Under the pieces are notes generated by a model. It had not been told where the DNA came from. It saw only the letters and a program-made list of their open reading frames with translations, and searched no databases. Of a stretch of 64,000 nt of DNA, positions 10,808-57,446 are shown one piece after another. Source of the DNA: Micromonospora phytophila (lineage in GTDB: Bacteria > Actinomycetota > Actinomycetes > Mycobacteriales > Micromonosporaceae); contig NZ_JAMOKF010000004.1 of NCBI RefSeq assembly GCF_023656545.1, positions 18,751-82,750 on the forward strand. The letters run 5' to 3'. A program made the translations under genes and the position numbers. The number at the start of each line of letters is the position of its first letter. Within the stretch, counting starts at the first letter, position 1.

Positions 10808-10984
10808 TAGCCCTTGTGGTGCCCGGCGAGGTGATCCGCGGCTGATCTTTGAGGAGGGCCGGGGCTCGGGGCGGAGCCCCGAGGTCTTCTAGGTCCTGGT
10901 CGTCCAAGCCTGGCCGGCCGGCCCGGCCGATGCCGGCCGGAGGTCGCCAGCAGGCCGGGGCCGGGCCGGCGCGGCCCGCTTTGC

Positions 10985-11363: not shown

Positions 11364-11438
11364 CCGAGCACCGTAGGTCGGGGCCCGGCTCCCCGCAGCG
11401 GTGACGATTCCGGACTCCCGACCCGTTCACCGGGTGGC

Positions 11439-12056: not shown

Positions 12057-12440
12057 CGCCGGGCCGTCCGCCGGCGGCCCGCCGGTGCCGTCACCGGCAC
12101 TGGCGTGGGTGCGGAATCTCGGTGGAGCAGTCGAGGCCCGATCGGTGAAGATCGGGTGGTGTCCGTTCCCGCCCGTCAGATCCGTGCCCGCTACTCGGTG
12201 AACACGATCACCGTGTACCACTGCCGGCTCACATCGCTGCCGGCATCGACGCCAGCCCGGACGTCACCGCTGACGACGTGCCCGAACGGCAGCACGGACC
12301 GTGATCGTCCTGCAGCAGGCCGGCGCGGCCGCCCGCGGCAGATCCGTGCACGTGAGCTTGGATGACCCACGGCCGGCGGCGGATGGCGCAGTCGAGGGTT
12401 GTCGGCAGGGGCAGGGTCGGTCGCCACCGGCTGACGTCGC
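12057..12440. other. Intergenic stretch without a recognised gene
   Basis: A minus-strand reading ends with SRQWYTVIVFTE at 12191, which looks like a protein C-terminus, but nothing upstream supports a complete gene. No terminator was recognised between the convergent genes. Confidence 0.4.
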
Positions 12441-40213: not shown

Positions 40214-41181
40214 TCAGGCGAGCAGCGGTTCGAAGATGTCGCGGCCGAGCGTGACTGCCTGGTCCTGGTCGAGAACAGTGGCGGCGAGGTTGGGACGGGT
40301 AGTGATCCACGCCTGAGCGTTGGAAGTGCTCGTGAAAAGTTGATGGTGGAACAGCAGGTGTCCACGGAGCGGCCAGAGTCCCCGGTGGCCGCGTACACGA
40401 TCACCGCTTCCACCGGCTGGTACGTCGCGGCACCGTTGGTGATGGTCACGCGGACCGGTTGACCGGTGTGCGGATCGGCGGAGGTGATTGTCGCGTCGGT
40501 GCCGAGCATGAATGGCATGCCCAGCGCGTCGATGGCACACATCGCGTACACGTCGACATCGCCGAATGACACCACGTGCGGCGTTGCCGTTGGGGAGAAC
40601 GGGTAGGCCGCGACCAGACGCCCGGCATTGTCGACGGCGACAAGGTCTTCCCGGGCAAGTTCCCGCAGCGCCTTCGCGGTGTCCAGGTCCGGCGCGTTGA
40701 CGCCAGCGCGGATGTCGGTGTCAGTGGGGGCAGTCCCGGTGGCAGCGAAGTGACGCAGGATCGCCCGGTGCACCTGCCGGAGGCTGTCGGGGAGCTGCTC
40801 GGCGCGGCGGGGTCGGTCAGTCCGGATCGCGTTGCCCGGCTGCGCGCAGCAATCCACCCGACTTTGCTCCGTCACGGCGGTGGCGGGTTCGGCGCCTATC
40901 GCCTGACGCAGGGCAGCGCGGATGCGCTCGCCAGTGGGGAGATCCAGGCGGCAGGCCGCCGAACCCTCGCCGATGCCGCCCATCACGTCCACACCGTTGA
41001 CCAGAATCGACGGCGAGGGATAGTCCCCAACGACCTCGGTGACCACCGCCAGTGGCAGCCCGAGGTCGGCCAGCGCGGCGCGCAGCTCGTGCCGAGCCGG
41101 GGCGAGGTTCGGACAGTCGGGCACGGAACGAAACTCAACAGCCACCCGGCCCTCTGCTGCGCGATCTGCTGCTGCGGTCAT
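40214..41181 (-). pseudogene. merB: Organomercurial lyase (MerB) fused to a thioredoxin-like domain, one frameshift
   Basis: From ATG 41181 (GGAGGG upstream), residues 1 to about 95 are a thioredoxin-like domain (VEFRSVPDCPNLAPARHELR, then PSILVNGVDVMGG). The alkylmercury lyase domain follows: VHRAILRHFAATGTAPTDTD, DVDVYAMCAIDALGMPFML with the first active-site Cys and SVDTCCSTINF with the second. In a TTTT run (near 40343) a lost base shifts the frame; the true ending TSTSNAQAWITTRPNLAATV continues to 40214. MerB cleaves carbon-mercury bonds. Divergent from merR across a MerR operator. Confidence 0.85.
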
Positions 41182-41261
41182 CACAGACCCTCCTAGCAAG
41201 CGGCTCCCGGTGTCATCACGCACACCGCCTGGCCGTCACGGCTCTACCCGAACCAGAATGA

Positions 41262-41283
41262 ACCTTCCAGTGCACGGGAAGGT
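41262..41283 (-). promoter_or_regulatory. MerR-type operator and promoter for merB
   Basis: ACCTTCC (41262-41268) and GGAAGGT (41277-41283) form a perfect 7-bp dyad with an 8-nt centre. On the minus strand it lies between TTGACC (-35, about 41279-41284) and a TCATTCT-like -10, with a long spacer of about 19 nt, the arrangement that MerR activators untwist. Confidence 0.75.
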
Positions 41284-41310
41284 CAAGACGCGACGACAGG
41301 AGATCACCGG

Positions 41311-41700
41311 ATGCGGATCGGGGAACTCGCCGAGGCGACCGGCACCACCACCAAGACCCTGCGCTTCTACGAAGCCAGCGGCTTGCTCCCACCCCCCACC
41401 CGCACCCCCGCCGGCTACCGCGACTACAGCGACGACGCCACCGCTCGGCTCGACTTCATCCGCCGCGGGCGCGCTGCCGGCCTCACCCTCGCCCAGATCC
41501 GCGACATCCTCACCGTCCGCGACACCGGCCGCGCCCCCTGCGGACACGTACGCCAACTACTCGCCGAACAGCTCGACGCCATCGACGCGCAACTCGCCGA
41601 GCTGCACGCCCTGCGGGCCACCGTCGCTCAGCTTCACGACTCCGCCGCCAACGCCGAACCCGACACCTGCCCACCCGCGCAGGTCTGCCGCTACCTATAA
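41311..41700 (+). CDS. merR: MerR-family metal-responsive regulator
   Basis: 129 residues from ATG 41311 (AGGAGA upstream). N-terminal MerR HTH: MRIGELAEATGTTTKTLRFY, then LRFYEASGLLPPPTRTPAGY. Metal-site candidates are Cys in GRAPCGHVRQLL and two near the end, DTCPPAQVCRYL, as in mercury-type sensors (spacing differs slightly from classical MerR). Divergent from merB, so a mercury or organomercury sensor is the best reading. Confidence 0.87.
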   Translation: MRIGELAEATGTTTKTLRFYEASGLLPPPTRTPAGYRDYSDDATARLDFIRRGRAAGLTLAQIRDILTVRDTGRAPCGHVRQLLAEQLDAIDAQLAELHALRATVAQLHDSAANAEPDTCPPAQVCRYL

Positions 41701-41764
41701 CCGCTTCCGTAAGACGGCTCTCAGACGTTGGGTGGGGGTGAGCTTCATCCCGGTGCCGTCGTCG

Positions 41765-42483
41765 CGGGTGACCGTCCGATCGGCCATGGCCGCCCAGACA
41801 GTCCTGGAAGGCCGATACCTCGGCGGACGCCCGCCATTCGGCTACAGGCTCCGTGATCTCGGCCCTCACCCCAACCCGGCGAAGGCGGCCGACGGCAAAC
41901 ATCTTCGCGGGCTCACCCCGGACGCCCAGAGCGCCCCCGTCGTCCGCCGGATCTTCCACGAGTTTCTCGCCGGCTACGGGCTTTTCGCCATCGCCGAAGG
42001 ACTCACCGCCAACCATGTGCCCTGCCCCTCGGCACACGACCGAGCGCGTAATCCCCACCGCAGCGGCATCGCCTGGTCCAAGAGCGCCGTACGCGTCATC
42101 CTCACCAACCCCCGCTACACCGGCCGGCAGGTCTGGAACAAACAACGCACCGACGAAGTCCTCCTCGACGTCGATGACGTAGCACTGGGCCACACAGGGG
42201 TCATGCGCTGGAACACCCGCGACAAGTGGGTGGTCTCCAAGGAGATCACCCACCCGCCCCTGATCGATGACGAGACCTTCGAGCAAGCCCAGGCACTGCT
42301 AACCCGTCGCGCGCGAGCCGCCGACCTTCAGGGACGCCGCCGCCGCACCCGCAACCCCTACGTCTTCCGCGGAATGATCTACTGCGCCGCCTGCCAGCGC
42401 CGCATGCAAGGCCAGTACAACCACGGCGCTGCCTACTACCGCTGCCGCTTCCCTCAGGAATACGCCCTCGCCAAGTGGTCAAA
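41765..42483 (+). pseudogene. Large serine recombinase, central part only
   Basis: The recombinase domain reads RSAMAAQTVLEGRYLGGRPP, then FGYRLRDLGPHPNPAKAADG, SGIAWSKSAVRVILTNPRYT and YCAACQRRMQGQYNHGAAYY (zinc ribbon). The catalytic N-terminal resolvase domain is missing, and the C-terminus breaks after CRFPQEYAL near 42473, just before the giant sensor gene. A phage or element integrase remnant at the left edge of the defence island. Confidence 0.8.
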
Positions 42484-42570
42484 AGGAGCCGCAAGATCGC
42501 GAGCCGGGTCGGCCGAAGGAGAAGGGTTAGAGTTGCCCGACCCATGCGCGACTTGGAGGACTCCGCCGGC

Positions 42571-45500
42571 ATGTCCCGACCCGCCCTCGCCTCTCTTCCC
42601 GACCCGGCTCTGGCGGCGGATGATGTGCCGCTCAGTGACTCGCTAGTCGCCGAACTCGCCAAGCGAGGTTGGCGGGTCGATGACGATCCGCTGCGGGCGC
42701 GCTGGTTGCGGCTTGCGGCGTGTCACTCCACTTTCCTTTACGAGATTGGCCGGGCGCCGATCTCGGCCGCCGCACTGGCGGCACTGGGCAAGGTGGGCGC
42801 CACCCATCTGGCGCTCGCGGTGGCCGACCTGGTCGTGGAGCGCACTCGTCCGGACAAGGTCAGCAGGCAGAACCGGGTCATCGCGCACATGCCCGGGCGG
42901 GTCGCCCAGCGGGTCGCTGGCAATCTGGCTGTCGTCGAGTCGATGAACCTGGGCAAGGGCGAGGAGCCGAACCGGCGGAGCACGTCGCGCCTGGCTGAGG
43001 ACGTCATGCACCAGGTCCTCGGTGTGGTGGTGCTCCTCGGCGGCTACACCATCGTCAAGCGGCTGGTGGCAGACGTCTACGAGCAGGCACTCCAGCAGGT
43101 GCTCATGGACGGCATCAACTGGTGGGGTGAGCTGACCCGCTCCGTGCCGGTTCAGCAGCTCACGGTTGAGGACCATCAGGAGGGCCCGGATCACCATCGG
43201 ACCTTCATTGTGGAGATCGTCGACGACCGGGGCCGGCGCGGGCGCGGCGAGTTCTCGAAACGAACCGGCGCGAAGGATCTGGCGGTCCAGGACTACCTGC
43301 GCAACGCGGGCCTCTACGGTGAGATCATCGCGCGCGCCGGCGGCCGCTCGATCTCGCGGCTCGCCGAGGAGCCCCGTCACTACCCACCGGGTCAGGGCCC
43401 GTGGAACCGCACGGTCGCCGAACTGGCCATCACGCTCCGGATCACTCCGGAACGCCGGGCCTACCTGCAGCAAGCACTCACTCACAAGTCATGGGCTTAC
43501 GAGAACCAGTCGTTGGTCCGCCAGGCCCGGCAGATCGACTACGAACTGCTGGCCAACCACGGGTCCTACGTCATCAGGGCGGTGTCGGCCGCAGAGTTCA
43601 CGCGCAACCTGCTGGGCCGCACGCTCAAGCCCGGACCGGAGGATGGCGCGATCCATTCGTTGCCGGAGCGCTGCTACGTCGACATGTTCGACCGGCTCGT
43701 GCCGGAATCGGCCGTGCTCCGCAGCCGCGGCGAAACCGAGTGTAAGCCCCGCATGAAGGCAGAAGCCTTTCAGGCGATTGCCTCGGTCGCCTGGCGCTTC
43801 GGCGAAGCCGGCCTGCCGGAAACGCTGCGAGGTTGGATACTGCGGGAGACCCTTGCTCAGGGGCTCGACGAGTTGAGCCGGCTGCAGCGTCTCTGTGCCA
43901 CCTTCGGTGGCGAGGCCTTCTCCACCTATACCTCCGCCGGCCCGGCGCACGATTCCCGGTTCACGGCCACCCTTACCGTCCGTATCGGCGTGCTCGAACT
44001 CGTTCGGACCGGCCCTCCGACGCCCGGGAAGAAAGAGACCACCCGGCTGGCCGCAGAGCGGTTGTACCGACTTTTCACCCTAGGACCGGACCTCCGGGCC
44101 GCCGTCGGGACAGAGCGGGAGGAGAGCATGCTGCTCCTGCTGTGCCTGGCTCGGCGTCTGCCGGTGCTGCGCGGCCGTGATCTCCGGCGCTGTATGGAGG
44201 AAGGGGTTCTGGGGCTGGGTCTGCTGGCCGCCTCGGGTGACGAGCTCAACGGCTTCCTCGCGTGGGCGGAGGAGGTTGACTCGCTGACCGGCCCGCTGGA
44301 CGACGAGCTCTTCGACCATCTGGTGACCGTCTACGGCAACGCTGTGAAGGCACGCTCGCGGCCAAAGCTGGAGCAGGCGTTGCGGGTTCTGGCGGCCTGG
44401 GTGCGCAATCTCGACCCGGAAGGCACCGTCGTGGTTCGGAAGGCACCCCAATGGCACCTCCTTCTGGCGGTAGCCGGCGCACTACGGGCTGGCGCCGCCC
44501 GGGAACAAAAGACGGTAGACGAAATCGTCGGATCCTGGCCGGTGCAAGGTCCCGAGTCCGCGTCGCTCTTCTTCGCGGTCGACGCCGCCGCCATCGGTGA
44601 ACTGCTCCGGGAGTTCCCTGACACGTCCGCTGGAACGGTCCGGTTCCGACGGCTTCCCGACGGAGTCCGGGTTGAATGCGCGAGCACGGTCCCGGGCGCG
44701 GCCGACCGCGTCCGCAGTCTGGTCGACCTGCTCGCCGAGATGGCGCCCGGCCTTGGGGTCTTCGCCGGAGCGGACACGCAGACGCTGAGCGCCACCTACG
44801 CCCCCGACCCTGCCGACCGGTCCTTCACGGCGGCCGGCAGGCTCGCATTTCACGGCTCCCGGGACCGTGACGGCGTCGAGATCTTGGCGAACGTCCTGCA
44901 CCGGCTGAAAAACGAGTTGATCGGCATGGAGGACGTCGCGCAGAAGGCGGCGGTGGCCAGCGACCGGGTAACGCGCTTTCACCGACTCGCCGATGCCGCC
45001 CGACACCACGAGGCCGCCGTCCGCCTGGCCGACCACCTGGACCACACCAACCAAGCGCTGGCGGATGCCGACAAAGAGACGGTTCAGTTGGGCCGCTGGA
45101 TCGATGAGTACTGCGCCGCCAAGGTTCTGGAGATCAGAGAGATGGCGAACGTACGTCTGATCGCGCCCGCCAAGTCCGGCCATTGTGAGGTCGCCCTCTC
45201 GCCGTCGCTGCTGCGGGGAGTTCTGGACAACCTCATCAAGAACGCTGTCGAGGCGATGCCGAACGGCGGCCGGATCATCGTCGACTGGTACACCGAGCCG
45301 GGCCACGTGTTCCTCGTTGTGCACGACGACGGCCCGGGGCTGCCCGACGAGATCCGCGAGATGTTCTGGCGGGACGAGACTGTGACGAGCACCAAGGTGC
45401 ACGGCTCGGGCATGGGGCTGTGGCTGGTACGCATGGACCTGCGCCGGCTGGGCGCCACGATCTCCGATGACCCCGGGGCGGACGGCCAGCGCTGGATCAT

Positions 45501-46773
45501 CGACCTGCCATGCGAGGACGTGACAGATTCCGATGCGCCCGGCCAAAAACCGTCCCCGGTGCCACAGGCGGGGGCGAGTCCCCGGCGCAAAGTCCGGGTG
45601 TTGCTCGTGGACGACCAAGAAAACGTCGCTCGTACGATGGCCGGGCACCTCGATCCGATTAGCGCCCAGGTCGAGATCGCTCACGACGGTGAAAGCGCGC
45701 TGGCCAGGCTTGGCGCCGGGCATTACGACGTCGTGGTCACCGATCTACAGATGCCGCCCGATACCTGGGGTGGGTTGTGGCTGCTGAGGCGCATGCAGGA
45801 AGAGGGCCACCGGGTGCCGGTGGTGGTGCTTTCCGGCGAGGGAGGCTTCGACCAGGCGAGAGTGGCTTTCAACGCGGGCGCCATCAAGTACGTGACCAAG
45901 GCGGACGCGGCCAAGGAACTCGTTACCGTTGTCGAGGAGGTTCTGGCCGATCTAGGCCGGCAAAGCCGTCGTGATCTGCAGCATCTACCACTGCCGGTGG
46001 CGCTCGGCCTGCAGCGTTACGAGTCGGAGGCGGTGGCGAACCTGCGGGTGCGGGCCGGCCACTCGGCGTTGGAGGACGCACTCCGGTTCATCGGCGCGAT
46101 CGGGCTCGGCGAGTTACTGCACGGCGAGCCGGACGCTCGGGTGCCTCGGCCGGTGCTGGCGCCCCACATGATGCTGGGCAAGTGGGTTGATTTGCTGAAG
46201 GCGCTCGCCTCGCGGCTGGCGCAGGACTCGTTTGCGGGACAGGTCATCCGCAGTCTCGACCTGGACGCGCTCGCCGTCGTAAAGACCGGCCGCAACGTAG
46301 TCGGTCACAGCCCGGAGCGCCCCAACGCCGAGGTGGCCCGCATGCTGGGCGAGGTCGATCCGCTGCTGGAGCAGTTCGCAACAGCCTTGCGTCACATCCC
46401 GGACCGCACGGTGATGATCGCCCAATCGCTACGACTAAATGCAAAAAGGTACACCGTTTCGGCGTTCAGGGTGACCGGCACCGGTCCGGTGCTGCCGAGT
46501 GCCGAGTGGATCGGCAGTTCTGCTCCCGAAGAGAACTCGGTCGGCCTGTACCGGCCCGGCACCGACTCGTGGATCCCGACCGGCCCGTGGATGACGGCCC
46601 GGCCGGGTACGGCCCGGGGCGAGTGGCAGATCTCCGTCATCGACGGTGTGACCCAGGGGCACCGGGGTAGGCCAGCGAAGCTGACCTACCAGCCGTTCGG
46701 TAACGGCGAGAAGTGGGAGACGGCAGCTGACGAGGACACCGACGAGCTGATCCGCCGATCGGCGGCACGATAG
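42571..46773 (+). CDS. Giant RNase III-like/dsRBD/histidine kinase/receiver/HEPN-like fusion protein
   Basis: 1400 residues from ATG 42571 (GGAGG 11 nt upstream; ATG 42544 possible). Domains, numbered from 42571: RNase III-like about 23-178 (LGKGEEPN block); dsRBD-like about 182-249 (GPDHHRTF, SKRTGAK); second RNase III-like about 280-434 (ALTHKSW, KPRMKAEAF); second dsRBD-like about 435-502 (GPAHDSRF, GKKETTRLAAE); a 260-residue helical linker. Then histidine kinase: H-box HRLKNEL (777-783), N-box DNLIKNAVEA (886-895), G1 DDGPGLP, G2 GSGMGL. Receiver about 1007-1128 with the acidic DD pair, phospho-Asp in VVVTDLQM (D1058), Ser1088 and Lys1110. A C-terminal helical domain carries RNVVGH (R1241, H1246), a HEPN-like Rx4H motif, then a beta-rich tail. 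RNase III catalytic acids are mostly substituted (E to A, D to K, E to H in copy one; D to N, D to E, E to Q in copy two). Tail-to-tail with a Druantia-like operon. Domain names are from motif reading only. Confidence 0.75.
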   Translation: MSRPALASLPDPALAADDVPLSDSLVAELAKRGWRVDDDPLRARWLRLAACHSTFLYEIGRAPISAAALAALGKVGATHLALAVADLVVERTRPDKVSRQNRVIAHMPGRVAQRVAGNLAVVESMNLGKGEEPNRRSTSRLAEDVMHQVLGVVVLLGGYTIVKRLVADVYEQALQQVLMDGINWWGELTRSVPVQQLTVEDHQEGPDHHRTFIVEIVDDRGRRGRGEFSKRTGAKDLAVQDYLRNAGLYGEIIARAGGRSISRLAEEPRHYPPGQGPWNRTVAELAITLRITPERRAYLQQALTHKSWAYENQSLVRQARQIDYELLANHGSYVIRAVSAAEFTRNLLGRTLKPGPEDGAIHSLPERCYVDMFDRLVPESAVLRSRGETECKPRMKAEAFQAIASVAWRFGEAGLPETLRGWILRETLAQGLDELSRLQRLCATFGGEAFSTYTSAGPAHDSRFTATLTVRIGVLELVRTGPPTPGKKETTRLAAERLYRLFTLGPDLRAAVGTEREESMLLLLCLARRLPVLRGRDLRRCMEEGVLGLGLLAASGDELNGFLAWAEEVDSLTGPLDDELFDHLVTVYGNAVKARSRPKLEQALRVLAAWVRNLDPEGTVVVRKAPQWHLLLAVAGALRAGAAREQKTVDEIVGSWPVQGPESASLFFAVDAAAIGELLREFPDTSAGTVRFRRLPDGVRVECASTVPGAADRVRSLVDLLAEMAPGLGVFAGADTQTLSATYAPDPADRSFTAAGRLAFHGSRDRDGVEILANVLHRLKNELIGMEDVAQKAAVASDRVTRFHRLADAARHHEAAVRLADHLDHTNQALADADKETVQLGRWIDEYCAAKVLEIREMANVRLIAPAKSGHCEVALSPSLLRGVLDNLIKNAVEAMPNGGRIIVDWYTEPGHVFLVVHDDGPGLPDEIREMFWRDETVTSTKVHGSGMGLWLVRMDLRRLGATISDDPGADGQRWIIDLPCEDVTDSDAPGQKPSPVPQAGASPRRKVRVLLVDDQENVARTMAGHLDPISAQVEIAHDGESALARLGAGHYDVVVTDLQMPPDTWGGLWLLRRMQEEGHRVPVVVLSGEGGFDQARVAFNAGAIKYVTKADAAKELVTVVEEVLADLGRQSRRDLQHLPLPVALGLQRYESEAVANLRVRAGHSALEDALRFIGAIGLGELLHGEPDARVPRPVLAPHMMLGKWVDLLKALASRLAQDSFAGQVIRSLDLDALAVVKTGRNVVGHSPERPNAEVARMLGEVDPLLEQFATALRHIPDRTVMIAQSLRLNAKRYTVSAFRVTGTGPVLPSAEWIGSSAPEENSVGLYRPGTDSWIPTGPWMTARPGTARGEWQISVIDGVTQGHRGRPAKLTYQPFGNGEKWETAADEDTDELIRRSAAR

Positions 46774-46979: not shown

Positions 46980-48809
46980 TCAGGGACGGTAGTCGTCGTG
47001 GAGAACAACGCGGGAGAACTCGTAGCCGTCTTGGGTACGCCAGTAGTGCAGCCGGCGCGCGGCGGCTGATTCCCGCTGCAGCGCCACTCGCCAACAGGTC
47101 GCACCATCGGCGCGGCGAACGTAGGGGCTACCCGCGCTGCCACTCCGTAGTTGGTGCACGTCGCGCCCGGCGATGTGCTGGACCTGACCAGTGAGCACCT
47201 CGACCACGACAGCTACGACCTTCGCCCGGCTGACGCCCTCGACTTGTTCAATGGAATCGAGGAAGCCGGGGGCCACCACATACGTGGCGAGTGGCTTGGC
47301 GGCCTTCTCAGCGGCGGGAACGCGCTGCGCCCACTCACAAGTGACCTCATAGCGAAACTGGTCCTCAGGATCGAGGAAGAGCGGCCCCTCCGCATCCGCA
47401 GACTGGCCTGCGCGGCTCTGCGCGCCCTTGAGCTGCTTGACCAGCCGCTGCCGAGCCAGGTCGGCGCCGCGGTAGCGGGTCTGTAGCTGTCCAATGGACC
47501 GAGTCGCTTGCGCGCACTCAGCTTCCAGCTCAGCGGCTCGGCCTCGTAGACCCGTCAATTCGTCGGCGAGGGCCTTGCGGGTCGCCCGCTCGGCCGCCAG
47601 CTCGTTGCTCAGCTGTGCAACACGCGCCTGCTCCCATACCGGCATGGCCTCGGCGGGTCGCGCCATCACCGGTTGCTGCGCCGGCGAAAGCCGGCGGACC
47701 AGGTCCAACGGCGTCGGCTGCCGCGGCGCCACATTCCGCACAACTGGTGACGGTGGCGCCGCCAACGGCGGTGAGTGCGCCGGGGGCGAAGGCGCCGCCA
47801 CCGCCGGGGGCTGCGGAGCGGGTGGACGCAACCACGGCGGCCCGCCCGGAAGCAGACTCGGCGCTGACTTTGCCGGCTCCTCGTCATCGACGTCGTCCAA
47901 CCGCAAACGCAGCGGCTCCAACGCGACGAGGCGGCCAGCGACGGTTTCCCCGACACTGAACAGGCCGCTCAACGTGTCGTTTGGGTTGGTGGTAACCGCC
48001 TCCCGGCCGAGCTCGACCACAAGGCCGGGCAACAGCCGCACGGTAACCACGTCATCGCTTACGGCGGCCACCTCAGCCAGAACCACGTCACCGATCTGAT
48101 ACGCGTGGTTCACAGCCGCAAGGGCGCTGGCGAGGTCGGTGAACCGCAGCGCGGCCCGCACGTCCAGGCGCCGCGAGTCCCGGTCGTAGCTGCCCGCGAC
48201 TGACTGCCCCTTGACGAGCACCTGGTCCAGTGTCACGCCGGGAAGGGTCAACTCCTCCCACACCGTCGCCGCCGACATGTCTTCCAACGTGACCAGCGCC
48301 CGCGAACCGATGACGCCCTGCACACGCCCCGACCGCTGCTGAGACCCCGCAGGCGTGCGGGACTCGACCAGTCCGGCTGCCATGGCGGCTTGCAGCGCAT
48401 CGCTGATCAACTGATCGGTGATGCGCTTGCGGTCGTCTGGCGAGTAGGCGAACCGCAACCTGCTACGCCCAGGGTCAGAGACCCACAGATGATCGACCGG
48501 GTACACCCGACCCGCCCCGCCATACACCTGAGTCATGGCCGGCATCACCCGCGAGAACGCCCACGAGACGTCGCTCGTGGGCATCAGCACCACCTCGGCC
48601 AGGTCGCCGACCGCCTGCTTGATCTCGTCCGGATCACCGAACGGCTGGTCATACCCCGCCGGAATCGTCAGCACGACGACCGGCCACCGCCGCCCAGGCA
48701 CCAACAACCGGTGCGCTAGCTCGCTGGCCTCGTCCTCCGAGGCGATGCGACATACCTTCGGCCGCGGCGCATCAACGCCAGCTACCTCTCTGCTAGCCGA
48801 TCGCCCCAC
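46980..48809 (-). CDS. S1-like/coiled-coil protein, third gene of the defence operon
   Basis: 609 residues from GTG 48809 (TTG 48830 possible; ribosome site weak). Numbered from 48809: an unrecognised N-terminal domain (WPVVVLTIPAGYDQPFGDPD, VSWAFSRVMPAMTQVYGGAG) to about 145; two S1-like beta barrels at about 159-225 (GQSVAGSYDRDSRRLDVRAA) and 239-306; a Pro-rich linker 315-368; a coiled coil about 391-463; and a C-terminal domain with VLTGQVQHIAGRDVHQLRSG and SAAARRLHYWRTQDGYEFSR, perhaps RelE-like. S1 folds bind RNA. It follows the helicase gene by 127 nt in the same direction, so a shared transcript is likely. Function unknown. Confidence 0.75.
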   Translation of the reverse strand: MGRSASREVAGVDAPRPKVCRIASEDEASELAHRLLVPGRRWPVVVLTIPAGYDQPFGDPDEIKQAVGDLAEVVLMPTSDVSWAFSRVMPAMTQVYGGAGRVYPVDHLWVSDPGRSRLRFAYSPDDRKRITDQLISDALQAAMAAGLVESRTPAGSQQRSGRVQGVIGSRALVTLEDMSAATVWEELTLPGVTLDQVLVKGQSVAGSYDRDSRRLDVRAALRFTDLASALAAVNHAYQIGDVVLAEVAAVSDDVVTVRLLPGLVVELGREAVTTNPNDTLSGLFSVGETVAGRLVALEPLRLRLDDVDDEEPAKSAPSLLPGGPPWLRPPAPQPPAVAAPSPPAHSPPLAAPPSPVVRNVAPRQPTPLDLVRRLSPAQQPVMARPAEAMPVWEQARVAQLSNELAAERATRKALADELTGLRGRAAELEAECAQATRSIGQLQTRYRGADLARQRLVKQLKGAQSRAGQSADAEGPLFLDPEDQFRYEVTCEWAQRVPAAEKAAKPLATYVVAPGFLDSIEQVEGVSRAKVVAVVVEVLTGQVQHIAGRDVHQLRSGSAGSPYVRRADGATCWRVALQRESAAARRLHYWRTQDGYEFSRVVLHDDYRP

Positions 48810-48936
48810 AGGACTCGACCACCTCTCCAAACGAGTTGCATTGGCGGGTGTCGGTTATCGAAGTCACCACGCTCTGCGGGGGCCACGGCCCAAGGCGGCG
48901 ACCAGAAGGGGTATGCGGAGCAACAGCAGCTCCACA

Positions 48937-51900
48937 TCACCACACAGCGACGCCGATCAGCATGAGATCGTCTGCCCCGTCATCCAACGGCGCTCCGGCT
49001 ATCGGCTGCAGGCCCGCCCCGACCACATCATTGGCATCGCGTTGGAGCCATAGCCGCCCTACCGCGGCGTCGCCGTCACGGCGGGCGAGGACGACACGAC
49101 CTTCGTAAAGGTCGAGTTGTCCGGAGGTGACGGGCTCGAAGACCTCGCCGGGCGCCTCCGTCACCAGGAATCGGCGAGTCGCGGTAAGGGCGGGCCCGAC
49201 GTCCGAGAGCGAGACCCGCAGCGCCCCGACGGGCGCTTGGTCGTGCTTGCCGAGGAGGCGGCTGAGCACGTCCGCCGCCACGCCGCGACGTAGCTGCTCG
49301 TGGTAGCGCTCGTTGCGGAACACCCGCAAGCAGCGGTAGCAGCTGGTCTCCGGGCCGCATTCACAGTCGCGGACCCGCTGCAGGGCATGGTCGAGCACGT
49401 CCCGCAGCCGCTCAGCGATGCGCCGGACGTGGCCGGCTCCTCCGGGCACGGTGTCGTACAGCATGATCACGCTGCGGCCGGCTTCGGTTCGGTAGACCGT
49501 CGCGTCGATGTCGTCGCGGGAGATCTCGAGCGCGCGCACCGCCCCCTCTACCAGTGCGTACGCGACCGATCGCCAGGCGTTGTCCTCGACTCCGATCACG
49601 ACGGCACCGTCGAAGCTCAGGTCGAGGACGTCCGTCTGATATTTGTGGGCCAGCGACAGGTTCTCCATGCGGCCACGGCACTCGCGGCCGCTGAGCGGAC
49701 TCCGGTGATCAACCCGACCGTCGATGGCCCGGCCGGCGAATCCACAGGTCGCGCAGACGAGGAAGCCGCGTCCCATCGCACCGTCGCTGATTGCCACCAG
49801 CTCGCCCCGGGCACCGGCCCGGATGGTGATCGCGCCTCCGGCGAGGTCCAACTTGTCCGCGTAGAGCTCAGCGCCGGGAGACACGACATGGGTTGCGCCG
49901 TGCCAGGCCCGGCGCGGCGCGCTGGTGGGTCGCCGGCCGGTACCGCGCGCCGCGACGAAGCCGAAGACGGGAATGGCGTACTGACGGGGTACGCCGACGA
50001 GGGCGGAGCCGCAGGCCGGGCACTCCTGGTCGAGGCGGTCGATCGAGTCGCGGTAGTGGCCGCATCCGTCGCACACCGCGTAGTAGCGTCGCTCAAGGTC
50101 GCGTCCGGGCAGCCGGTACAGGCCAGCCGACTGCCAGACCAGTCCCCCGGCGACGACCTCAGCACCGGGTGCGTACTCATAGATGGCCGACGAGAGGTCT
50201 CTGGAAAGCTCTAGTTGCTTGGCGATGGGGGCGTCTGCGAAGGCCAGCCGCAGCTCGACGGTGTCGACGGGAAACCCGTACTTCGGCAGGACGTTTCGGT
50301 TGGCGAGCAGCCCGAGCAGTTCGCGGCGAGTGATCGTGTTCATCACGCGGCCGTACCGCGCGGCCTTGTCGTCCTGGCGGGCGGTGAAGGCCTCCTGCCG
50401 CTTCTGCTCGTACGTGTCGACATCCTGCTGCAGCTCGGCCCGGACCGACTCCAGCAGGTCGACCAGGTGCTCGACCCACTCTTCGGAGTCGACGCCGATG
50501 ATGTCGCGCACCTCGGCCGGCAGCACCTGCCGCAGCGAGTCGGTGACCCGCCCAGGAACTGGGTTAAGGAAGTCGCGGACCAACGTGACTGGGGCGATCC
50601 CGTCGTCACCTGGCAGGAAGAACTCCCCTGCCGTTCGCCAGATGGTGCCGTGGGACCGAAATTGGTGCCGGAAGAATGCGGCGAGCGCGACGGAGTGGGC
50701 GTGCCGCCGATCAATCCGCACGTTGGTCAGGGGCACGTACGGCGCCCGGACCTCGCCGGCGATCATCCGGTCGGGCTCGGCGAACCGAGAGAGGTCATGC
50801 GAGCGGCGCTGGGCATAGGTGAGCACGAGCGCGGCTGAATCGGTTCGGCGGCCGGCCCGGCCGGCCCGCTGGACGTAGTTCGCGGTGGTCGGAGGCATGT
50901 TGCGCAGCATGACGGCTTGCAGCTCACCGACGTCGACACCGAGTTCGAACGTGGTGGAGCAGGAGAGGGCGTTGACTTCGCCGCGGACGAACTGCTGCTG
51001 GATTTCGGCGGCTCGTTCGCTGGTCCACTGGGCGGTGTGTTCGAGTACGCGCAGCGGCACTGGGTTCATGTCCCGGTAGACGTTGCGGTAGTGGTCCGGG
51101 TCGGTGTCCACCGCAGGCGACGTCCAAGGTTCGAGATCGCCGGTGCAGGCCATGGTGGGGCAGGTGGCGCGCACGTTGAACGGGGTGAGCTTGCGGCACC
51201 TGCTGCACTGCCACATGGTCAGGCCGCCGACCGTAGGCGTGCAGGTGATCAAAGCGGAGTCGAGCTGATGGACCTGCCCGATGCCGGCTTCGGTGCCGGC
51301 GATCAGCCACTCGGCCTGTGGCCCCCTGGTCAGCAGGCGCCACACGCCCTCCAGCAGTTGGATCGGGTCCGCCTGCCGGTCGAGCCGAGCAAGCACGCGG
51401 GTCACGAAGTCGGCCCGCCGGTTGGTCCCCCTGGTCGGCAGCCAGCTGAGCACCTTGCGGCGCGCATCGGAGCCAGTGCCGCGTACGTAGATCGGGCCGA
51501 GCCGCGGCTGGAACGCTTCGTCGCGGGGGTCCACTCCGTCAAGGGCACCGACGGCGCCCTGGAGCCGAATCGATCGGATCAACTCGGCGAGCAGCGCCCA
51601 GACCTCCTCGTCGCTGAGGCCGAGGGCAAGCAGTGGCTGGGGTGGTAGCCAGGCAGGGTCGCGGGACATGTCCCAGGCGATGAGTCCCCTGCCCTCCAGG
51701 GAGTTGCGTTCGTCAACGCCGACAGCCTCGACCTGCGCCCAGAGGGCGACCTGCCTCTCCCGAGCCTGTCGGCTCTGCCGCCGTTCGAAGATGCCGTACC
51801 GGTCGGCTACTCGGGAGGTGTGGTAGACGACGTCGGTAAGGCGAACCTCGTCGTCGGCCGCCGCAGCGGCGACGGCACCCTCGTGGAGCAGCCGCCGACG

Positions 51901-53865
51901 CTGCACCCGCTCGTAGGAGTCTTCGAGGTACGGCGCGAAGTACGCCGCAGACTGCCGGCTGTCGCTGAACAGCAGCAGCTTGCGCCCGCCGCCTCGCAGA
52001 CCCTGCTGGACGGGATCGGAGGCCACGGGCAGCTTCTGATAGAGGGCGGTCGCCAGGACCGAGGCGGAGGCTTCGTTACCGCTGGCGAAGAGTCGGATCA
52101 GGCCGGCTCCGCGCCCCCCGCACGCGAGGCAGGCCGTGAGCTCGTCGCTGCGCTGCCGTAGGAAACGAACGGCGCGCATGGCGCCGTCCGGGCAGCGCGG
52201 GCAGTTGGCCGCCTTACCGATCTGGAACACCCCGCACCGGGTGCACAGCGCGCCCAGCTCGCCGGCCGCCTGGGCAGCACCGCTGAACATCTCCTCGTCC
52301 TCGTCGGTCGCCACTTCGTCGACCAGCGCCATCCACACCTGCTGCTCGTCGCGGGAGCGGCGGGACCGGAACACGGTGAAGGTGCCGACCCGCTCCAGCG
52401 TGCCCATCAGGTAGACGGTGCCGCAGCGGCGGCAGGTGCCGAACTCGAAGGCGGCGTCGCCGCACCGTCCGCAGCGCTCGTGCCGGGTCAGACTGACGTG
52501 CGGCCCGTTGGCTCCGAGGCAGGCGAAAGCCCCTTCCGTCGCGCGGGCGAAGAGGTGGTAGCGGGCGGAGAGCACCGGTGTGCCGTCCTTGTCGTGGACG
52601 CTGTTAGCCAGGGCGACCATCGACGCGGTCGCGGACGCGTCGCTACTGGGGAACAGGGCCTGGGCGACCTCGTGCAGCGGTATCGGCCCGTGGGCGAGCA
52701 GCGCCTTGAGCCGGCGAACGCGCTGCTCATACGTCAGCGCCTCGGCGGGGTCGTCCCCGGCATACCCGTGCTCTCGGGCGAGGGCCACGACGGCACCGGC
52801 GGGATCCGGCGCGTTTAGCAGTTTCTCGTACGCCGTGGCGGGCAGGGGTCCCCACTCGGGCCCGGGCGGCAGCTCCACCCGGTCGGCGGTGATGACGTCC
52901 TGCCTCGCTTCATCCGCGGAGTCGTACTCGAAGGGGACGGGGAAGAGGGAGGCAGCGAAGTCGACCACGGCTCCCATGTCGCTACCGACGGTCGCGCTCG
53001 TCGCGATGCACTGCACCGGTCGGCCCGAATCCACCCGGTCGGCGAGTCGGCGCAGCAGCATCGCCAGCTCGGCCCCGCGAGCCCCGTCGTAGACGTGCGC
53101 CTCGTCGACGACAATGAACTGCCAGTGCCCGGCGTGTTCACCCTCGAAGAGGTCCATGTCCAAGGGCCGCAGCAGCAGGTATTCGAGCATGGCGTAGTTG
53201 GTCAGCAGGAGGTGCGGCGGTCGCTGCTGCATCTCCTCCCGGCTGAGCAGTTCGTTGGGCAGCGGCCGCTCGCCAGGGTTCTGCTGCTCGAAGACCTCCA
53301 CGGCCTCCCGGCGACTCCGGCGGGTCTCACCCGTGTACCGACCAAAGGTGATGTCCGGCGCCTCGGCCAGCAGGCCCCGCAGCCGCTTCATCTGATCGTT
53401 GGCCAGCGCGTTCATCGGGTACAGCAGCAACGCCCGCACGCCAGGCCCGAGGCTGCCCGCCGCACGTTCGGCCATCAGCCGGCTCAGGACGGGGATGAGG
53501 AAGCTCTCGGTCTTGCCGGATCCGGTGCCGGTAGCGACGACGATGTTGCGCCCTGCGGTTGCCTTCCGGATCGCCCGCTCCTGGTGTTGGTAGAGCGGAC
53601 GGTCCATGGCCAGCCCGGCGCCCAGGCTGGCGATGCCGGGATCGAGCAAGCCCGCGTCGATGAGCTGCCGGGGTGTGGCGCTGGTGACGTAGGGCGGGGT
53701 CGCCTCGAGCAGGGGCCCCTTGGTGATCTCCTGGTTGATCGCGTCGCCGATCGCAGTTTCGAGCGCGCTCGCGAGCCGGGGATCCTTCGGCTCCACGAGG
53801 GAACGAAGATAGCGCCGGTAGGTGGAGACGATCGCGTCACTGGTGGCGAGGGGGTCGAGGATCAT
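48937..53865 (-). CDS. DruE-like DEAH helicase with DUF1998-type C-terminus
   Basis: 1642 residues from ATG 53865, whose ATGA overlaps the DruH-like stop. Helicase motifs: Q-region LYQHQERAI (91-99), Walker A ATGTGSGKT (111-119), DEAH box VVDEAHVYDG (254-257), SAT (290-292), and in the second RecA domain FELGVDVGELQAVMLRN and YVQRAGRAGRR. At least four zinc-ribbon-like Cys groups are scattered (CGRCG..CRRCG, CTRCG..CPRC, CDGCG..CPACG, CATCG). The C-terminus has CECGPETSCYRC (C1501, C1503, C1509, C1512) followed by NERYHEQLRRG, the DUF1998 pattern. Size and layout match DruE of Druantia anti-phage systems better than MrfA (much shorter) or split DISARM DrmA/DrmB. Confidence 0.88.
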   Translation of the reverse strand: MILDPLATSDAIVSTYRRYLRSLVEPKDPRLASALETAIGDAINQEITKGPLLEATPPYVTSATPRQLIDAGLLDPGIASLGAGLAMDRPLYQHQERAIRKATAGRNIVVATGTGSGKTESFLIPVLSRLMAERAAGSLGPGVRALLLYPMNALANDQMKRLRGLLAEAPDITFGRYTGETRRSRREAVEVFEQQNPGERPLPNELLSREEMQQRPPHLLLTNYAMLEYLLLRPLDMDLFEGEHAGHWQFIVVDEAHVYDGARGAELAMLLRRLADRVDSGRPVQCIATSATVGSDMGAVVDFAASLFPVPFEYDSADEARQDVITADRVELPPGPEWGPLPATAYEKLLNAPDPAGAVVALAREHGYAGDDPAEALTYEQRVRRLKALLAHGPIPLHEVAQALFPSSDASATASMVALANSVHDKDGTPVLSARYHLFARATEGAFACLGANGPHVSLTRHERCGRCGDAAFEFGTCRRCGTVYLMGTLERVGTFTVFRSRRSRDEQQVWMALVDEVATDEDEEMFSGAAQAAGELGALCTRCGVFQIGKAANCPRCPDGAMRAVRFLRQRSDELTACLACGGRGAGLIRLFASGNEASASVLATALYQKLPVASDPVQQGLRGGGRKLLLFSDSRQSAAYFAPYLEDSYERVQRRRLLHEGAVAAAAADDEVRLTDVVYHTSRVADRYGIFERRQSRQARERQVALWAQVEAVGVDERNSLEGRGLIAWDMSRDPAWLPPQPLLALGLSDEEVWALLAELIRSIRLQGAVGALDGVDPRDEAFQPRLGPIYVRGTGSDARRKVLSWLPTRGTNRRADFVTRVLARLDRQADPIQLLEGVWRLLTRGPQAEWLIAGTEAGIGQVHQLDSALITCTPTVGGLTMWQCSRCRKLTPFNVRATCPTMACTGDLEPWTSPAVDTDPDHYRNVYRDMNPVPLRVLEHTAQWTSERAAEIQQQFVRGEVNALSCSTTFELGVDVGELQAVMLRNMPPTTANYVQRAGRAGRRTDSAALVLTYAQRRSHDLSRFAEPDRMIAGEVRAPYVPLTNVRIDRRHAHSVALAAFFRHQFRSHGTIWRTAGEFFLPGDDGIAPVTLVRDFLNPVPGRVTDSLRQVLPAEVRDIIGVDSEEWVEHLVDLLESVRAELQQDVDTYEQKRQEAFTARQDDKAARYGRVMNTITRRELLGLLANRNVLPKYGFPVDTVELRLAFADAPIAKQLELSRDLSSAIYEYAPGAEVVAGGLVWQSAGLYRLPGRDLERRYYAVCDGCGHYRDSIDRLDQECPACGSALVGVPRQYAIPVFGFVAARGTGRRPTSAPRRAWHGATHVVSPGAELYADKLDLAGGAITIRAGARGELVAISDGAMGRGFLVCATCGFAGRAIDGRVDHRSPLSGRECRGRMENLSLAHKYQTDVLDLSFDGAVVIGVEDNAWRSVAYALVEGAVRALEISRDDIDATVYRTEAGRSVIMLYDTVPGGAGHVRRIAERLRDVLDHALQRVRDCECGPETSCYRCLRVFRNERYHEQLRRGVAADVLSRLLGKHDQAPVGALRVSLSDVGPALTATRRFLVTEAPGEVFEPVTSGQLDLYEGRVVLARRDGDAAVGRLWLQRDANDVVGAGLQPIAGAPLDDGADDLMLIGVAVW

Positions 53866-56800
53866 TCGGCTGCTCCGGCTCCGGTCAGGAGGAACTCCGC
53901 GAGGAGAAGGTCGATGGCGACGAGACGGGGTGCGCTGCGGGCGAGCGTCGCGTGTAGAGGAAGGATTCGTGGCAGCAGCCCGGCCGGGGCCACGTGCCCT
54001 CGGGCGGCCAGCCGCGCCACGAAGGCGAACGCCAGCGACAGCGCGGGGAGAGCGAGCCACCCTCGAGTCGGGTTGCGGGCCTGCAGCGCGGCCATCGCCC
54101 GTGGCCCACCGCACTCGGCCAAGGGCTTTTGCAGGGCGCGCAGCAGCCCCTCCGCGTTGCTGGAGAGCCGTCCCAGGCCGGGCCGCACCCGTACCTCGAA
54201 CAGGTGGCGGGCCGCAACCATCCGTTCGTCGGCGTCGAGCAGGCCGCCGGGAACGACGCGCATCGCCCGCCACACCCGGTCGCGTTCCGGAGCCGGCAGC
54301 AACGCGAACACCTCGGCCGACTGGTCGAACCTGCCGACCGTCTCGTACGGATCGGGGCCGCCAGCGAGCAGGTGCGCTGCCACCTCACCGCACACCGCGG
54401 TGATCTGTTCGCCCAGATCGGCGTGGGAGGCGATGTCAGGCAGCCGGTGGGCCGAGGCGAGCATTGCGGCCAGCGGGCTCGCCGTCCAGAGCCGCGCCTC
54501 GTCGGCCGCACTGACGTACCTGTCGGGAGGCAGGGCGATCAGCCCGGAGTGCACCAGGGGCGCGACCACTTGGTCGGCCGAGGCGCGGTGCTTGGTGAGC
54601 GCGGCCAGCGCGGCGGCGGGATGCGGGCGCAGGAGCGCTGCGGCGCCCCGGATGTTGGCCGTGACACCTCGGGCATAAAGGTCGTCCGCGCGCGGGTAGA
54701 GGTCGAACAGCAGCGGCGCGATGTCCGGTCGGTCGGGCAGGGCAGCTGCTCCGGCCAGGTACGCCGAGACCGCCTCACCCGCGGGGTCCTGGCCGGTCGG
54801 CTGCCACTTCAGCTCGGTGAGGTCGAAGGCGTTGTCGGGGCCGGGCCACTCCGGCCAGTCCGACGGCAACCACGGATCGTCGATGCGCAGCAGCGCCACG
54901 AGGGGCCCCGCCGTGGTGATCCGGGTGGGCAGTGGGTCGCTGACCAGGTCCGCGCCGAGGCGTGCGAGGTACGGCGGTTCCCACGGCGCGTACACCTGGT
55001 ACAGCGCGGCCGTCAGCCCTTCGGCCCGCACGCCGTCGACCAGCACCAGCCGGTCGTCCTCGAGGTGCACCGCGCTGGCGAGGCGTCGGGGTACGCAGCG
55101 CGCTGCCGGGAAGTCCTGCCCGTCGAAGCGGACGTCGAGCTGGGCGAGCCCGTGGGCGTCGACCGTGTCGGCGATGGCCGCGAGCCCAAACCGGGCCATC
55201 GGCTGCCCATAGGTTTCTCCAGACGGAACGGTTTGCAGCTCGCGGCCCCCGGACCGGACGATCAACCGTGCGTCCGCCGCCCGCGGCAGACGCACCAGCA
55301 GTTCACCCTCGCCGATCGTCTCGGTGTCCAGACGCAGTGGCTGCAGGGACCATTCGCCGCGGCTGCCGCCGCCGAGCCGTTGGAGCGCCATGTGCGCGGG
55401 CGTTACCCGTACGGTGGTCGCGCCGCCCGGGCTGTCGAGCTGCAGCTCGACAGCGGTGTCGGCGGGGCCCAGGTGGGTCATTGGGGGCGTTACCGACAGG
55501 TCGGGCATGGTGACGTCGGCTCCTACGGTGGCCGGTTCCAGCCCGTCCGCCGTGATCTCTCGCCAGGCGGGGTGGGAGATGACGGACAGCCCCTCGGCGA
55601 ACTCCAACGTGCGGGCCAGGCCGCGGCCGAGCGGACCCCGAACGGTGATCTCGTAGGGGCCGACCAAGGGGCGGGCAAGGTCCCGCCACGGGTCGACCGT
55701 CGTGTCTCGGTCGGCGGAGAGGCTCTCGGTATGCAGGAGCTGACCGGAGCCGGGTCGGCGGATCCGGATCGACCAGTCGGTGCTCACGCCGGGCTCGGTC
55801 GGCAGGGTCAGCCGCGGGGCCGTCGCGATCACCGGTGCGCCGGCGAGGCTGCTCACTCCGGGCAATGGCTGGGCGAGCTGCAGTTGGGCGCGGCGGGCAC
55901 CCTTGACCCGGCGGGGCGTTCCGCCACCAAGCCGCAGCTGCGACACCTGGCGAAGGTCGGCGCGGCGCAGCGTCCAGCCGAGCCAGCCGTACGGCGCCGG
56001 CACGTCGTACGTGTCGACCAGGTCGCCATCCACCTGCAGCTCGAGCGGCCTACCGCCGTCGCTCTCTTGCGGGTACAGCAACCAGACCGGCTCAGGCGGC
56101 AATCCGGCGGTCGCCGGCACCCGTCGGCCGTCCTCGGTGAAGACCAACAGGGGATCCCGCGGGTCGACCACGTCCAGCTCGTACTCCTGGTCGTAGCCGG
56201 CCAACTCCACCGTCGCCTGACGCGCGGAGCGTGCGATGGCTACCACCGTTGCGGGTGCGGTCTCGCTGGTGCCGGGCCAGCGCGACTGGCTGACGACCGA
56301 CTCGACCTCGCCATCGAAGCGCAACTGCCACATGACGCGACCGTCCGGTGCGTCGTGGACCGGCGGCAACCACACCATCAGGCCACGGCCGAACGGCTCC
56401 AACTCCAGGTGGGGGCGCTGCTGCGCCGCCACCGCAGCCGATGCCATGCGCTCCGAGCTGCCCGTCCAGTCGAGCTGCTTCGCCTCCGCAAGGGCGTGGG
56501 CCTTGGCAATCAGATGTGGGGAGAGTCCGAGTCCGTCGGCGGTGAACCCCGGCTGCCGCAGCCGCTCCAACAGGTCGAGGCAGCGGTCGACAAGGTCCGC
56601 GGCGTAGTCCTCGCCGCGCTGGATGAACCGCTGCACCGGCTTGTCGGTCCCGTTCAGACGCGACTCCCGGCCGGGCGCGAGCGCCCAGGCGAGAAAGCTC
56701 TCGCCAGTGAGTCCGGGCTCACGGGACTGGCGGTGCAGGAGAAGATTCAACAGGTCGCCGAGGCAGTACGCGGGGACCCCGGCATGCATGAGGATCTCAC

Positions 56801-57173
56801 CGACGTAGACCTGCGGCAGACCAGGGAACCGGGCCAGCCGGAAGTAGTCGAGGTTGAGGCGGAAGGCCCTCCCCCAGAACGTCTGGTCGACCTGGCCCGG
56901 CGCCTCGTTGTGGACGGCGCTCCAGTAGTCGCCGTGTTCGTACCCGACGGCACCGATCCCAGCCAGGCCGACGACCAAGCACGCGGGGTAGTGACGGGTG
57001 AGCAACCGCTGCCGCTCCAGGGGCTTGCAATACCAAAAAACCCGTCCCAGGGCGCGGATGACCTCTTTGGCGTGGTCCTCCGGTGCGTCAATCTCGGCGA
57101 CCAGCGACACCGCGCGCAGGGCTGGCGCCCACTCGGCTTCCCGGAGCCGAAGTATCTCGGATGCGTGTGACAC
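53862..57173 (-). CDS. DruH-like large protein, partner of the helicase
   Basis: 1103 residues from GTG 57173 (GAGGGAG upstream); the frame is open further but without a better start. The N-terminal block of about 45-170 reads FWYCKPLERQRLLTRHYPAC, then GDYWSAVHNEAPGQVDQTFW and GRAFRLNLDYFRLARFPGLP. The centre (about 300-780) is beta-rich, the C-terminus helical. No enzyme motif was found. Overlap with the DruE-like gene by 4 nt shows translational coupling, as in two-gene type III Druantia (druH-druE). Naming rests on size, context and general pattern, not on an alignment. Confidence 0.7.
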   Translation of the reverse strand: MSHASEILRLREAEWAPALRAVSLVAEIDAPEDHAKEVIRALGRVFWYCKPLERQRLLTRHYPACLVVGLAGIGAVGYEHGDYWSAVHNEAPGQVDQTFWGRAFRLNLDYFRLARFPGLPQVYVGEILMHAGVPAYCLGDLLNLLLHRQSREPGLTGESFLAWALAPGRESRLNGTDKPVQRFIQRGEDYAADLVDRCLDLLERLRQPGFTADGLGLSPHLIAKAHALAEAKQLDWTGSSERMASAAVAAQQRPHLELEPFGRGLMVWLPPVHDAPDGRVMWQLRFDGEVESVVSQSRWPGTSETAPATVVAIARSARQATVELAGYDQEYELDVVDPRDPLLVFTEDGRRVPATAGLPPEPVWLLYPQESDGGRPLELQVDGDLVDTYDVPAPYGWLGWTLRRADLRQVSQLRLGGGTPRRVKGARRAQLQLAQPLPGVSSLAGAPVIATAPRLTLPTEPGVSTDWSIRIRRPGSGQLLHTESLSADRDTTVDPWRDLARPLVGPYEITVRGPLGRGLARTLEFAEGLSVISHPAWREITADGLEPATVGADVTMPDLSVTPPMTHLGPADTAVELQLDSPGGATTVRVTPAHMALQRLGGGSRGEWSLQPLRLDTETIGEGELLVRLPRAADARLIVRSGGRELQTVPSGETYGQPMARFGLAAIADTVDAHGLAQLDVRFDGQDFPAARCVPRRLASAVHLEDDRLVLVDGVRAEGLTAALYQVYAPWEPPYLARLGADLVSDPLPTRITTAGPLVALLRIDDPWLPSDWPEWPGPDNAFDLTELKWQPTGQDPAGEAVSAYLAGAAALPDRPDIAPLLFDLYPRADDLYARGVTANIRGAAALLRPHPAAALAALTKHRASADQVVAPLVHSGLIALPPDRYVSAADEARLWTASPLAAMLASAHRLPDIASHADLGEQITAVCGEVAAHLLAGGPDPYETVGRFDQSAEVFALLPAPERDRVWRAMRVVPGGLLDADERMVAARHLFEVRVRPGLGRLSSNAEGLLRALQKPLAECGGPRAMAALQARNPTRGWLALPALSLAFAFVARLAARGHVAPAGLLPRILPLHATLARSAPRLVAIDLLLAEFLLTGAGAAE

Positions 57174-57446
57174 GGTCTCCCTCTTCTGGATTGGGGGGCA
57201 GCGCGGTAGGGCGACTATGCAAGCAAGCCAAGGCGTCTTCAAGACCAAACCAACGGCTCAGCATCCCCCCTGCCCGATCGGTCATCGAGGTGGGCCCGGT
57301 CGGCGACAGCGGTAAACAGGTCAGGTCTGACGCCGACCCACTCAGGGGAGTGAGAACTGGCGGCGTTGACTTCGCCCGCCTGGCCGGCCGGGCACCTGGC
57401 GGGCGGGTGGCCGGCCCGGCACTCGGATCACTGGATTTCGGACACG
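57174..57446. promoter_or_regulatory. Upstream region of the druH-like operon
   Basis: 273 nt between the DruH-like start and the SAV_6107-like stop. Promoters of the defence operon should lie here, but no convincing -35/-10 pair could be picked by eye. Confidence 0.35.

Follow-up and report, generated by a model that had tools for sequence, protein, structure and literature searches.

In a 64,000-nucleotide stretch of the genome of the soil bacterium Micromonospora phytophila (contig NZ_JAMOKF010000004.1, positions 18,751 to 82,750; hereafter the window, with positions counted from its first letter), a gene on the forward strand encodes a 1400-residue protein in which two ribonuclease III (RNase III)-like domains, each followed by a double-stranded RNA-binding domain (dsRBD), share one chain with a histidine kinase, a receiver and a putative HEPN-type ribonuclease. 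The frame is open from 42571 to 46773, as confirmed by a check of the window's open reading frames (ORFs). Nine codons earlier, at 42544, lies an in-frame ATG that is the start in the closest database relative (P0002), a Micromonospora echinofusca protein 98% identical to that of the window. The features of the gene are as follows.

42571..46773 (+), whole gene: pseudo-RNase III/dsRBD (twice), linker, histidine kinase, receiver, HEPN-type domain and beta domain; 1400 aa
42628..43110 (+), RNase III-like domain 1: residues ~20-180; A/G/A/D/H at the positions of E38/E41/D45/D114/E117
43120..43308 (+), dsRBD 1: residues ~184-246; GPDH loop at 205-208
43396..43860 (+), RNase III-like domain 2: residues ~276-430; E325 (equivalent to E38), A328 (E41), S332 (D45), E398 (D114), Q401 (E117)
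43870..44079 (+), dsRBD 2: residues ~434-503; GPAH loop at 457-460
44098..44865 (+), linker region: residues ~510-765; mostly helical in the model, with low confidence in 596-667
44866..45525 (+), histidine kinase: residues ~766-985; H777, N-box N887/N891, G1 DDGPG 919-923, G2 GSGMG 945-949
45595..45945 (+), receiver: residues 1009-1125; D1014/D1015, phospho-acceptor D1058, S1088, K1110
45946..46410 (+), HEPN-type domain: residues ~1126-1280; E1168-x3-R1172, R1241-N1242-x3-H1246
46411..46725 (+), C-terminal beta-rich domain: residues ~1281-1385; in relatives, conserved together with the HEPN part; low-confidence model

This order of domains had been read in a preliminary description made from the sequence alone, and Pfam, hhalign profiles and a model of the sensor bear it out. 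The domain families that the description named for a profile search were recovered in part: Response_reg (residues 1010-1121, 5.5e-18) and HATPase_c (879-966, 2.3e-13) are clear, Ribonucleas_3_3, in two stretches (4.5e-6), and dsrm (436-496, 0.0058) lie under Pfam's own cut-offs, and the Pfam scan of the protein matched no HEPN family, nor any helicase or PAZ domain. PADLOC-DB 2.0.0 gave two weak matches, both inside the receiver, with no system model covering most of the protein. The fusion is not an assembly artefact, since the fused form recurs with unbroken frames in independent genomes, of which G105 and G712 are single-contig, and one clade has the same parts as two adjacent genes.

The sensor

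When the two sensor halves were compared by hhalign with 28 canonical RNase III proteins, they scored 99.8% (E 8e-29) and 99.7% (E 4e-27), with both RNase III and dsRBD covered in each case. Run in reverse, the sensor profile matched 390 of 394 Actinomycetes genomes, of which 386 reached no better than E 5.0e-31; among the matches listed, these weaker ones are stretches about as long as an ordinary RNase III gene. M. phytophila itself has an ordinary RNase III gene elsewhere in its genome, which scores 228.6 bits against TIGR02191 (cut-off 166.25); the window gene scores 21.6 bits. The modelled sensor (predicted local distance difference test, pLDDT, 77.8) has structural matches in Drosha, Dicer and bacterial RNase III and overlays the Dicer RNase III core, and in it the two RNase III halves are predicted to pair within one chain as they do in Dicer. 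An RNase III/dsRBD fold in residues 23-502, as first proposed, is accordingly what both model and profiles predict.

Five acidic residues, E38, E41, D45, D114 and E117 in Escherichia coli numbering, are listed as important in RNase III (PubMed Central, PMC, article PMC8708148) and are invariant in all 28 canonical proteins. Across the 24 family members compared, domain 2 has A in place of E41 in 23, S in place of D45 in all 24 and Q in place of E117 in 23; D114 stays D in 15 and is E in the window protein, and the E38 position is acidic in six, including the window. No member has an acidic residue at the E117 position of domain 1 (0/24); there D45 is D in a single member and D114 is D in four, the window among them, while the E41 position is acidic in 13 and G in the window protein. 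These counts show that neither RNase III-like domain holds a complete catalytic set. According to Table 1 of PMC8708148, replacement of E117 by K, A or Q in the E. coli enzyme leaves dsRNA binding in place and activity at none, and in Staphylococcus aureus RNase III the D63A and E135A substitutions separate cutting from binding (PMC3386247).

The contact residues of the dsRBDs are retained. G and H of the GPxH loop are found in 24/24 members for both domains (GPDH and GPAH in the window protein), in keeping with the two patterns originally noticed, and a basic residue is found at position 231 in 22 members and at position 487 in 23, with the adjacent positions 230 and 488 basic in only five members each. 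The GPxH loop and the basic residues of the second helix we take to be the positions at which a dsRBD contacts RNA. Judged by its residues, the sensor keeps the RNase III fold and the dsRBD contact residues and has lost key catalytic residues, and the term 'pseudo-RNase III' used in the preliminary description is apt.

Kinase, receiver and output domain

The phospho-histidine and the N, G1 and G2 boxes of the kinase are intact in all 16 aligned members, and the acidic pair, phospho-Asp, S/T and Lys of the receiver in all 15 aligned, so that the full kinase boxes and receiver phospho-Asp read in the window protein are invariant in its aligned relatives. HEPN domains are characterised by an Rx4-6H motif with a polar residue after the R and by an upstream Ex3[KR] (PMC3710099). 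The C-terminus has both elements, as RN-x3-H and Ex3R, and the late Rx4H recorded earlier belongs to this signature. RNxxxH is invariant in the 15 aligned sequences, and R, N, H and the upstream Ex3R remain unchanged in rows only 19-21% identical to the window protein. The C-terminus is predicted to be a HEPN-type ribonuclease. Structural comparison of the effector model was weak with Foldseek (best E 0.31), and with VIA-align HEPN toxins ranked first, but with ties. No family name could be attached to the C-terminus from Pfam or PADLOC, nor from the 25 of 126 NCBIfam matches listed.

A profile of the HEPN and beta domains matched three of 197 class genomes, two of them members of the family. 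The third (G319; L144 4674-6971 (-)) encodes a 765-aa protein that ends in a HEPN-beta domain, with RNxxxH as WRNSTAH and without a receiver, and that adjoins helicase and methyltransferase genes; on sequence grounds we read this locus as restriction-like, the 765-aa protein having no family match. The proteins of ~150-480 residues found with the same profile in the protein database had a receiver in 11 of 11 cases. The idea that different sensors are attached to the same receiver-HEPN output was abandoned when a plasmid match starting from residue 772 proved to have a normal sensor.

Three forms of the family

Eight relatives of the N-terminal part came from a word-based search of 5.8 billion proteins; one of them (P0006, 1118 residues) has no C-terminus. 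A profile added one more. A scan of genome contigs yielded 58 confirmed loci from 254 stretches, of which eight (L009-L016) were read as family and the remainder as ordinary RNase III genes or as kinase/receiver matches. Among whole genomes searched with the sensor profile, members appeared in 4/394 of the class, 8/330 of the family Micromonosporaceae, 12/295 of Streptomyces and 2/296 of the phylum, and a search with residues 1-601 of the window protein gave 4/160 genomes of the genus Micromonospora, one of the matches being a fragment; the draws overlap, and all except that of Streptomyces include the window's own genome.

The preliminary description spoke of a single protein and suggested a search for homologues with the same order. 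The fusion does recur elsewhere, and some relatives divide it over two genes, so a single protein describes one clade of three. Form A is fused (the window, G105, G712, G578 and Catellatospora); form B is split into a sensor-kinase gene followed by an adjacent receiver-HEPN gene (Geodermatophilus L012, G050, G555, G581 and some Streptomyces, among others); and form C is the sensor without a kinase (Streptomyces, Rhodococcus, Nocardia and Sphaerisporangium). In a 24-row tree each form falls in one group (support 100/100, 96/92 and 91/91). The two genes of form B overlap by four bases in five of 12 loci (L012, L139, L140, L147 and L148) and are 5 bases apart in L128; the other six have longer overlaps that are uncertain, as they depend on the chosen start. 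The fused form brings together the same partners as the two-gene form. One fused copy, in L073 (G113; 10001-12060), is broken: the match comprises sensor residues 1-117, and the frame of the receiver-HEPN end remains open.

The form C proteins (L010, L011, L014-L016, L122 and L130-L135) are ~850-1070 aa long and lack the kinase; many have an NRWVGI-like block at the N-terminus, they make up one tree group, and one database name among them is 'putative dsRNA-binding protein'. Two Streptomyces plasmids carry two-gene copies and, by our reading, three plasmids carry sensor-only copies. Members of the family are rare, patchy and sometimes plasmid-borne. Phage records searched with the first 601 residues held no copy, nor did viral contigs searched with one peptide pattern.

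Genomic surroundings

Four other ORFs of the window lie close to the gene.

41039..42646 (+), serine-recombinase ORF (Recombinase, Zn_ribbon_recom): overlaps the start of the gene; read as a remnant
46980..48830 (-), 616-aa neighbour: coiled-coil-type match and, over residues 26-160, a partial match to the defence candidate HEC-07
48937..54273 (-), Druantia DruE-like helicase, convergent neighbour: DEAD, Helicase_C, MrfA Zn-binding; PADLOC 6.9e-185
53862..57248 (-), 1128-aa neighbour: as called, it runs into the 5' end of the DruE-like ORF; unmatched in Pfam, PADLOC and NCBIfam at the thresholds applied

The same DruE-like helicase occupies the same place in G105 and G113 (96-97% identity) and was matched in only two of the 28 other loci compared. 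It is a convergent neighbour, and the idea that the kinase-HEPN protein is itself a Druantia component was rejected. The 1128-aa ORF upstream of the helicase is possibly an unnamed Druantia-type partner. The gene for the 616-aa protein lies between the kinase-HEPN gene and the DruE-like gene in the window and is not at that place in L071 (G105). A link between the HEC-07-like genes of the window and Catellatospora was ruled out, the two proteins failing to match each other. The serine-recombinase ORF belongs to a similarity group of ORFs found near members of the family in four loci (the window, L073, L128 and L129), which may point to a mobile carrier in common. Two large ORFs, unmatched in Pfam and PADLOC, lie near family genes in L126 (67-2865) and L072 (5174-8392), the latter with a relative in L126.

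The survey of the neighbourhood took in 19 fused or split loci (the window, L009, L012, L071-L073, L123, L124, L126-L129, L136-L140, L147 and L148). PADLOC was run on three large and one small neighbour in the window, on 20 proteins chosen by inspection (18 of them from loci of the fused or split forms, two from Nocardia) and on 99 more ORFs (200 residues or longer, no further than 7 kb away, 16 loci in all), with 25 of the 44 matched families listed; ten of the 99 were then scanned singly. Of the 20 chosen by inspection, eight had no PADLOC match at 1e-5, and of the ten scanned singly four had none. Established defence-system components, counted as components and not as complete systems, lie within ~8 kb of at least 7/19 loci, or at least 5/17 separate places if the three Micromonospora loci are counted once. 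Three of these are the loci with the DruE-like helicase; the others include L127 (type I restriction-modification HsdM/HsdS and a GmrSD-Schlafen protein), L128 (Avs3a, 6.2e-134), L129 (DISARM/Lamassu-like, with an LmuA-like MBL protein, a subtilase, a PD-T4-6-type kinase and a DISARM-like helicase) and L123, in which a CBASS set (cyclase, TRIP13 and NucC; 9466-12720 (-)) is found ~4 kb from the two-gene operon. The count of established components excludes the HEC-07 candidate, a partial match to a restriction enzyme near the Catellatospora gene, weak methyltransferase matches in L124 and a mad3 match in L139. This proximity is an association, counted without a baseline, and not an enrichment. 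There is no conserved third gene, no group of neighbouring ORFs beyond the system itself being found in more than five of 29 loci. Among sensor-only members, that of Nocardia L016 is beside a DpdE-like helicase, and that of the Rhodococcus opacus plasmid pCP135 (L149, 7485-10316) lies upstream of a BREX locus (DUF1819, DUF1788, brxC).

Proposed mechanism and alternatives

We interpret the protein as a phage alarm, a dsRNA-triggered phosphorelay that would switch on a HEPN-type ribonuclease, and put the probability of this reading at roughly 60%. The ligand would be dsRNA from convergent phage transcripts or from the replication forms of phage RNA. Binding by the RNase III pair and the two dsRBDs would rearrange the helical linker and lead to autophosphorylation at H777, from which the phosphate would pass to D1058 of the receiver; the phosphorylated receiver would then allow the HEPN domains to pair and cleave tRNA, mRNA or phage transcripts, and this cutting of phage or self RNA would halt either the cell or the phage. 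Where the system is split into two genes, the relay would pass from one protein to the other. A similar scheme was put forward in the preliminary description, and those parts of it that can be tested on sequence came out in its favour; that dsRNA switches the kinase, that the receiver gates the effector and that the target is phage is what we infer. The A found at the E41 position of domain 2 could weaken RNA binding, because binding by the E41A mutant of E. coli RNase III is given as 'low', as it is for D45E/N and D114A, D45A being scored 'yes' (PMC8708148, Table 1).

Other roles for the same parts can be envisaged. If the protein were a regulator of housekeeping or stress, its RNase III-like part would bind structured cellular RNA (antisense RNA or rRNA precursors) and the relay would tune RNA turnover. 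RNAs have been captured with catalytically impaired RNase III (PMC3386247) and sensor-only members without a kinase exist, but the family is very patchy at the level of class, family, genus and within Streptomyces (see the counts above), and the plasmid copies and defence-gene neighbours also argue for a different role, making a regulator unlikely. It is harder still to favour a guard of the host RNase III, in which the pseudo-enzyme would pair or compete with the host protein and fire once a phage had blocked that enzyme and uncut dsRNA accumulated: the RNase III fold is kept and the genome has an ordinary RNase III gene, but in the model the two domains pair with each other within the chain, and by our reading that would leave neither with a dimer face free. 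The relay could also operate with the opposite sign, the kinase being on in healthy cells and phosphorylation silencing the HEPN domain until RNA binding stops the kinase and frees the ribonuclease. The sign of control is not fixed by sequence, and receivers of either output sign exist; nothing specific speaks against this arrangement, but alarm systems more commonly use a resting kinase and we regard it as a long shot.

The output, too, might be of another kind, with the HEPN-type part acting as a binding or dimerising domain in protein-protein signalling. The fold evidence for HEPN is weak and some HEPN domains are non-catalytic (PMC3710099), but the invariance of R, N, H and Ex3R in such distant relatives is what would be expected of a catalytic site, and a non-nuclease role appears improbable.

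Relationship to known systems

Each sensor half resembles bacterial RNase III (rnc; TIGR02191) in profile and model, but the window protein has two copies per chain, has lost key catalytic residues and is fused to a kinase. The two RNase III domains per chain and the modelled internal pair with dsRBD recall Dicer and Drosha; in the window protein, however, key catalytic residues are lost in both domains, an extra dsRBD lies between them, a kinase follows and no helicase or PAZ domain is matched. In animals, PKR couples dsRNA sensing to a kinase and OAS-RNase L couples it to an RNase. The likeness to these is one of operation only, with no kinship of the sensor parts claimed, and the window protein differs in that histidine-aspartate phosphotransfer would join sensor and RNase in a single protein. 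The KEN domain of RNase L does belong to the HEPN superfamily (PMC3710099).

Among bacterial proteins, a cyanobacterial fusion of HEPN, RNase III and dsRBD also brings these domains together in one chain, but there the RNase III is single and described as active, the HEPN domain comes first, and the consulted text of PMC3710099 mentions no kinase or receiver. Hybrid histidine kinases share the complete kinase and receiver, and in the response regulator PorX, which carries a PglZ domain (PMC12839542), a receiver is likewise tied to a nucleic-acid enzyme domain; the window protein differs in its predicted RNA-binding pseudo-nuclease sensor and its HEPN output. A Schlafen RNase with a minimal histidine kinase and winged helix-turn-helix, found by BREX loci, similarly combines an RNase and a kinase-like ATPase in one defence-linked protein, but neither a receiver nor an RNase III/dsRBD sensor is mentioned in the consulted part of the article (PMC12839542). 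REC domains are known from conflict systems (PMC8195603, PMC11090510). Among the matches listed from the open-licence PMC literature, we found neither a dsRNA-sensing kinase-HEPN system nor, in agreement with the preliminary description, a protein with the same domain order, although a figure legend in PMC13092281 places HATPase and REC among predicted systems and a related one could be there. The individual parts are known, then, and it is the combination and its logic that would be new as an inferred mechanism.

Implications

We give even odds to a bolder formulation: that this is a dead-Dicer immune receptor, in which an internal, inactive RNase III pair senses phage dsRNA and fires a HEPN ribonuclease via a histidine-aspartate phosphorelay, making it a bacterial equivalent of the dsRNA-to-RNase L response in animals, as well as the first two-component system with an RNase suicide switch as its output. 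Point mutants of H777, D1058, H1246 and the GPxH loops would each test one step of the relay, and the sensor-only clade poses the question of what a dead Dicer does without a kinase. If the phage alarm is real, the phosphorelay would join the known ways of tying an immune sensor to a killer. In animals dsRNA is the classic viral alarm, and a dead Dicer-like receptor in bacteria would make that logic testable there.

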